From an uncultured Clostridium sp. (GTDB taxonomy: Bacteria; Bacillota; Clostridia; Peptostreptococcales; Peptostreptococcaceae): a stretch of DNA of 49,028 bases. The DNA is taken from positions 1 to 49,028 of the forward strand of contig CAMEPL010000010.1 in the NCBI GenBank assembly GCA_945931665.1. The letters are read 5' to 3'. The notes beneath the pieces were generated by a model. That model saw only the letters and a list, made by a program, of their open reading frames with translations. It made no database searches and was not told the origin of the DNA. The number at the start of each line of letters is the position of its first letter. The first letter of the stretch is position 1. Shown here piece after piece: positions 10,701-10,908 of the stretch. Made by a program: the position numbers and the translations under genes.

Positions 10701-10908
10701 AAACCCAGTCTTTTAATGTTCTAGCCACAACGTGGTGTATACCTGGGTTACCATTAGCTGTTGGTGGTCCTTCGTAGAATACGTAACTTGGATCATTTTC
10801 ACCTTTTTCTAGTGTTTTTTCTAATATATTTATATCGTTCCAATATTTTGACACTTCTGCTTCTGCATCTTTGACAGAAGAATCAACAAGAGGCTTAAAT
10901 TTAGCCAT
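7795..10908 (-). CDS. ileS: Isoleucyl-tRNA synthetase, eukaryote-like (type 2) with GXHH signature
   Basis: 1037 aa; FYEGPPTANGNPGIHHV, WDTHGLPVE, GKKMSKSKGN; no obvious C-terminal Zn-finger. Confidence 0.95.
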   Translation of the reverse strand: MAKFKPLVDSSVKDAEAEVSKYWNDINILEKTLEKGENDPSYVFYEGPPTANGNPGIHHVVARTLKDWVCRYKTMSGYQVQRKAGWDTHGLPVELQVEKELGLTNKQQIEEYGIKEFNQKCRESVFSYEAKWRNMTERMAYEVDLDNPYITLDNDYIESVWWILDKFNKEGYLYEGHKIVPYCPRCGTGLASHEVAQGYKEVKTNTVICKFKKKDAENEYFLAWTTTPWTLPSNVSLTVNPEVDYIKVAKDGEVYYVCKDLANKVLGEGTYEVLETMKGKDLEYMEYEQLMPFVEVTDKAFFITCADYVTTEDGTGIVHTAPAFGEDDYNCGRKYGLPVIQPVDSNGKFTATPWEGHFVMEDGIDVEIIKWLAAEGKLFSKEKMEHNYPHCWRCGTPLVYYANPSWYIEMTKLRDQLVANNNTVNWYPKFVGEGRFGNWLENVKDWAVSRTRYWGTPLNVWRCECGHTDSVGSRAELAERAIENVDPATVELHRPYVDDIHIACSECGKPMTRVKEVIDCWFDSGAMPFAQHHYPFENKEKFERLFPADYICEGIDQTRGWFYSLLAISTFVMGKAPYKNVLVNDLVLDKNGKKMSKSKGNTVDPFELFDKYGADALRWYLLYVSPPWTPIRFDEAGLREIQSKFLGTMKNVYNFFTLYANTDDIDPKDFFVEYKDRPELDRWILSKYNSLVKTTVENLEIFEVNRVIRNIQAFLNDDLSNWYIRRSRRRFWATELTEDKKAVYNTTYELLTGLCRLIAPFAPYMSEEMYRDLTGEVSVHLASYPKCDESLIDAKLEEKMELTKALVALGRASREDSKIKVRQPVSKVLVDGKYEDVISDVVDLIKEELNVKEVVFAKSLEEYMNFSLKPNFKVLGPVLGSKMKLFAGALAKLNANEVVPKLEAGEKVTVDLDGEAFEFDKEHVLVNIDAKEGFDVAMANNIFVILDTNLTEELINEGYVREFISKVQQIRKASNFEVLDNIDIEFNSDEAIAKAVEAFKNYIKTETLAVEIKAVDDTDFEKYDLNGHETGIKITKK

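Follow-up and report, generated by a model that had tools for sequence, protein, structure and literature searches.

The window, the 49,028-nucleotide stretch of DNA analysed here, carries an isoleucyl-tRNA synthetase (IleRS) gene encoding GIHH where the class I signature HXGH is expected. This raises the question of whether the gene is the housekeeping ileS of its host, with an inherited rearrangement, or a resistance gene acquired beside a conventional one.

Position of the GIHH motif and type of the enzyme

The gene and its motifs lie as follows.

7795..10908, minus strand: ileS, type 2 isoleucyl-tRNA synthetase (IleRS2), 1037 aa (ORF translation, TIGR00392, 8c8w)
10732..10743, minus strand: GIHH in place of the class I HXGH, residues 56-59 (ORF translation, phmmer)
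10219..10236, minus strand: TTTPWT, residues 225-230 (sequence read)
9952..9969, minus strand: GTGIVH, residues 314-319 (sequence read)
9298..9312, minus strand: HYPFE, residues 533-537, motif marking type 2/eukaryote-like IleRS (after PMC4861432)
9115..9129, minus strand: KMSKS, residues 594-598, second class I signature, intact (sequence read and alignment)

The codons GGT ATA CAC CAC (10743..10732, minus strand) encode Gly56, Ile57, His58 and His59 within PPTANGNPGIHHVVARTLK. In phmmer alignments, the window segment 'fyegpptangnpgihhvvartlkd' paired ungapped with 'fyegpptanglpgvhhalgrtikd' of 8c8w, the GVHH mutant of Priestia megaterium IleRS2 (PmIleRS2), and with 'fyegpptanglphvghalgrtikd' of 8c8u/8c8v (PmIleRS2, HVGH), so GIHH stands exactly at the HXGH position, as the first-pass annotation had claimed. 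Its description of an intact KMSKS loop and of a 1037-aa protein without a C-terminal zinc finger was also borne out: KMSKS is found within GKKMSKSKGN, and the whole 1037-aa translation has no cysteine beyond residue 787, and therefore no C-terminal Cys4 zinc site. TTTPWT and GTGIVH are conserved elements of the CP1 editing domain. We considered whether GIHH might stem from faulty sequencing or assembly, or from a recent, one-off point mutation in this strain. No point in favour of this was found, and the same motif occurs in three separately assembled genomes of the genus and across the whole order (33 of 33 readable genomes); a sequencing accident is thereby ruled out, and the explanation as a whole has a negligible probability.

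The protein scored 977 bits against TIGR00392 (IleRS; curated cut-off, 621.4), and 999 and 979 bits against the NCBIfam exception models for MupA and MupB, far below their 1900-bit cut-off. Its best-matching structures were IleRS2, led by 8c8w (1072 bits). Type 2 was judged by the HYPFE motif, by Thr or Phe at the Tyr59 equivalent and by grouping with IleRS2 versus IleRS1 in a tree; HYPFE and a PPT-type N-terminal segment are described as markers of this type in PMC4861432. The window enzyme has HYPFE, carries PPTANG where PPYANG, with the IleRS1 tyrosine, would be, and groups with IleRS2, not IleRS1. It also has, like natural GXHH enzymes (G/A at motif position 1, His at position 3), a glycine and a histidine at these places. 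Judged by its sequence, the protein is a type 2 IleRS of the natural GXHH class, in agreement with the type first assigned to it.

PmIleRS2 (8c8u, 8c8v; GVHH mutant 8c8w) is the nearest solved structure, with a near full-length match, but its native motif is HVGH, and P. megaterium has an IleRS1 beside it (PMC10485003). The natural G/AXHH IleRS2 of Streptomyces griseus and Deinococcus radiodurans resemble the window enzyme, whose KMSKS is intact, in being type 2 with swapped first and third motif positions (PMC10485003), whereas the window enzyme is clostridial, reads GIHH, has a T-box leader and lies in a divIVA slot.

The second signature varied elsewhere. KMHKS replaces KMSKS in two distant GIHH IleRS2 (L107, L149), so that each of these enzymes departs from both class I motifs, and KMSKH replaces it in many clostridial IleRS2, HXGH or GXHH alike (L081, L085, L089, L091, L095, L118, L119, L121, L124, L125, L126, L128).

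Copy number, T-box leader and gene neighbourhood

The host is an Intestinibacter, a gut bacterium, its nearest named relatives being Intestinibacter bartlettii strains at 97-98%. Its own assembly (2.59 Mb, 153 contigs, 86% complete) contains one ileS over the TIGR00392 cut-off, and so does each of 40 relatives (41 of 41 genomes counting its own), including a single-contig, 99%-complete congener. A hidden second ileS was sought among the remaining TIGR00392 matches of the own genome and rejected, these being below the cut-off and resembling ValRS, LeuRS and MetRS by motif and length. Because the own assembly is 86% complete, the sole-copy claim rests on the relatives and on three congeners of 99% completeness, including the single-contig one. 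The window ileS is apparently the only isoleucyl-tRNA synthetase gene of its host.

The region upstream of the gene holds the following features.

11093..11126, minus strand: terminator hairpin AACUCGUCCC...GGGAGGAGUU, then a U run (sequence read)
11113..11336, minus strand: T-box leader of ileS (RF00230, 135.3 bits, E 4.8e-30)
11138..11141, minus strand: UGGU, antiterminator bulge, predicted partner of the tRNA ACCA end (T-box alignment)
11246..11248, minus strand: AUC, probable Ile specifier codon, in GAAAAUCACUC (T-box alignment; specifier assignment inferred)
11492..12100, minus strand: divIVA-type gene, directly upstream of ileS, marking the conserved ileS slot
12126..12908, minus strand: ylmH-type S4-domain gene, same cluster as the divIVA-type gene
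13195..13680, minus strand: sepF-type gene, same cluster
13759..14457, minus strand: yggS/ylmE-type PLP-binding gene, same cluster

An isoleucine-type T-box would sense uncharged tRNA-Ile and control ileS expression. The upstream order (a yggS-type gene, then sepF, ylmH and divIVA, followed by ileS) is kept in the Peptostreptococcaceae loci read, and ileS1 sits after homologous genes in three of the four IleRS1-bearing Clostridia checked. None of the eight HXGH IleRS2 genes checked occupies the sepF-divIVA slot, and other GXHH lineages, e.g. Desulfosporosinus, also lie outside it. The Ile-type T-box leader and a slot holding ileS1 in other Clostridia mark the window ileS as a housekeeping gene; with the single copy, they uphold the earlier proposal that this is the sole, housekeeping IleRS. 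As a separate observation, the common sepF/divIVA neighbours (window 11492-14457; L166, L167, L168) suggest replacement at one locus between the ileS1 of other Clostridia and the GXHH ileS2 of Peptostreptococcaceae.

These data bear directly on whether the gene could be an acquired, mupA-like second IleRS beside a hidden housekeeping ileS1. IleRS2 can indeed arrive as an additional, acquired gene: 143 Staphylococcus records gave plasmid matches, and the ones listed were MupA. The incompleteness of the own genome also leaves room for a second ileS. The single ileS across the relatives, the single-contig congener included, the T-box leader and the divIVA slot shared with ileS1 all speak against it. 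So does MupA itself, the staphylococcal plasmid mupirocin resistance IleRS, which is type 2 like the window enzyme but is an acquired plasmid copy with an HAGH motif and about 44% identity. We therefore consider an acquired copy highly improbable. Large Bacillales plasmids (Sutcliffiella, Paenibacillus; L174, L175) carry IleRS2 with canonical-type motifs, HAGH and HIGH; none of the three plasmid IleRS2 read (mupA and these two) uses the swap.

Distribution and age of the swap

GXHH was found in all 30 order-level genomes in which ileS was read as a locus, the own genome included, and by pattern in three further ones, making up the 33 readable genomes. Nearly all of 80 named loci were GXHH, among them those of Clostridioides difficile, Romboutsia, Peptostreptococcus and Desulfosporosinus; three distant loci were HIGH and two do not span the motif. 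Across the class, 291 genomes were typed by exact sequence patterns, non-matching genomes being left unassigned. GXHH IleRS2 was present in 62 and HXGH IleRS2 in 136, while the IleRS1 pattern matched 51, of which 34 were IleRS1-like once MetRS-like matches were removed; the other 17 had only PYANG[S/P]LH-type matches, and the three of these inspected (L153, L154, L157) are not IleRS and resemble MetRS. By the same exact patterns, a second IleRS type (HXGH IleRS2 or IleRS1) was seen in none of the 62 GXHH carriers. Co-carriage of IleRS1 and IleRS2 in nine class genomes was considered and rejected, as all nine 'IleRS1' matches were of the PYANG[S/P]LH type; L153 and L157 come from these genomes and L154 from another.

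The first-pass annotation had treated the motif as notable for this organism. The motif is real, but it is the ordinary state across the order and nothing special to this host: as far as sequences tell, the GXHH swap is a family-wide trait. What is added to prior work is modest, namely that GXHH did not co-occur with other IleRS types in the class sample, and that the gene slot is shared.

The motif was masked before a quick maximum-likelihood tree was built from 57 sequences; in it, GXHH and HXGH IleRS2 part with a single change. SH-aLRT support was 97% for the HXGH side and 100% for the clostridial and bacillar GXHH set, and the query belongs to a GXHH set supported at 99%; of all sequences, a single Calditrichota GXHH had an uncertain placement. 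This tree gives no direction of change; a change from HXGH to GXHH, at least twice within IleRS2, was inferred in PMC10485003. Because the tree splits the two forms with one change, the swap is an old, inherited trait in this branch of Clostridia and not a recent acquisition. Whether whole clostridial orders rely on a mupirocin-proof GXHH IleRS as a sole, never-duplicated copy, partly at the ileS1 slot, through ancient replacement of ileS1 as opposed to drug-driven acquisition, is a proposal on which we are evenly divided.

Mupirocin and the cause of the swap

The window gene is thus very probably the chromosomal housekeeping IleRS2 of an Intestinibacter, a natural GXHH enzyme with an old inherited swap, T-box-controlled and expected to be hardly inhibited by mupirocin. 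The evidence presented here consists of the sequence, the motif register, the single copy of relatives, the phylogenetic split, the T-box and the gene slot; catalysis and hyper-resistance are predictions that draw on the published DrIleRS2, TtIleRS2 and PmIleRS2 studies.

The GXHH principle was already published in 2023, and the window enzyme is a further case. Brkic et al. found 86 natural G/AXHH IleRS2 and demonstrated that the motif alters the mupirocin Ki about 175- to 820-fold (PMC10485003), confirming the extreme resistance that the first-pass annotation had cited. Changing the natural ALHH of DrIleRS2 to HVGH lowered Ki from 6.6 mM to 8.1 uM (~820-fold), and the change from HVGH to GVHH raised it 175-fold in TtIleRS2 and 426-fold in PmIleRS2 (PMC10485003 Table 1). 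A ring nitrogen of the third His of GXHH occupies the place of the first His of HXGH; IleRS2 tolerates the swap because its motif helix is shifted, and IleRS1 does not. Mupirocin binding entails a back-shift, upon which the third His would clash with the drug (PMC10485003). By analogy, His58, third in the motif, would assume the transition-state role of the first His in Ile-AMP formation and would clash with mupirocin, so that the enzyme is expected to be hardly inhibited, with a Ki that homology would place between high micromolar and millimolar values.

'Hyper-resistance' here refers to the enzyme Ki; high MICs may be possible with any IleRS2, even HXGH. Our literature search found no paper with mupirocin data for Intestinibacter, MIC or Ki, for organism or enzyme. 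Paeniclostridium sordellii and Paraclostridium bifermentans belong to the same family as the host. Both were isolated on media with 100 mg/L mupirocin, and clostridia seem naturally resistant to the drug; other clostridia, enterococci and streptococci/lactic acid bacteria grew on those media too (PMC11064412). Because of the growth of these others, growth at 100 mg/L cannot separate GXHH from ordinary IleRS2; phenotype alone might miss the swap, as other clostridia, without demonstrated GXHH, also tolerate that concentration.

Fixation of the swap in a GXHH housekeeping enzyme could have had causes unrelated to mupirocin (catalytic tuning, for example, or a different natural inhibitor that mimics the adenylate), with hyper-resistance as a by-product. 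That question is about why the swap became fixed and does not conflict with the housekeeping reading. The trait is old, anaerobic lineages have it fixed, and we know of no mupirocin exposure of GXHH clostridial hosts. Moreover, the Ki of HXGH IleRS2, already micromolar or submicromolar and far above that of IleRS1, may suffice (PMC10485003). Against this, ALHH DrIleRS2 showed no catalytic gain versus canonical IleRS2, and the large effect known for the motif concerns mupirocin Ki (PMC10485003), leaving a by-product conceivable but somewhat unlikely.

These results indicate that a class I signature thought invariant is permanently rearranged in an essential enzyme of a large clostridial group that includes C. 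difficile and Intestinibacter. They provide a genetic reason to expect little effect of mupirocin on GXHH clostridia, and may help to explain the occurrence of clostridia on mupirocin-selective media.
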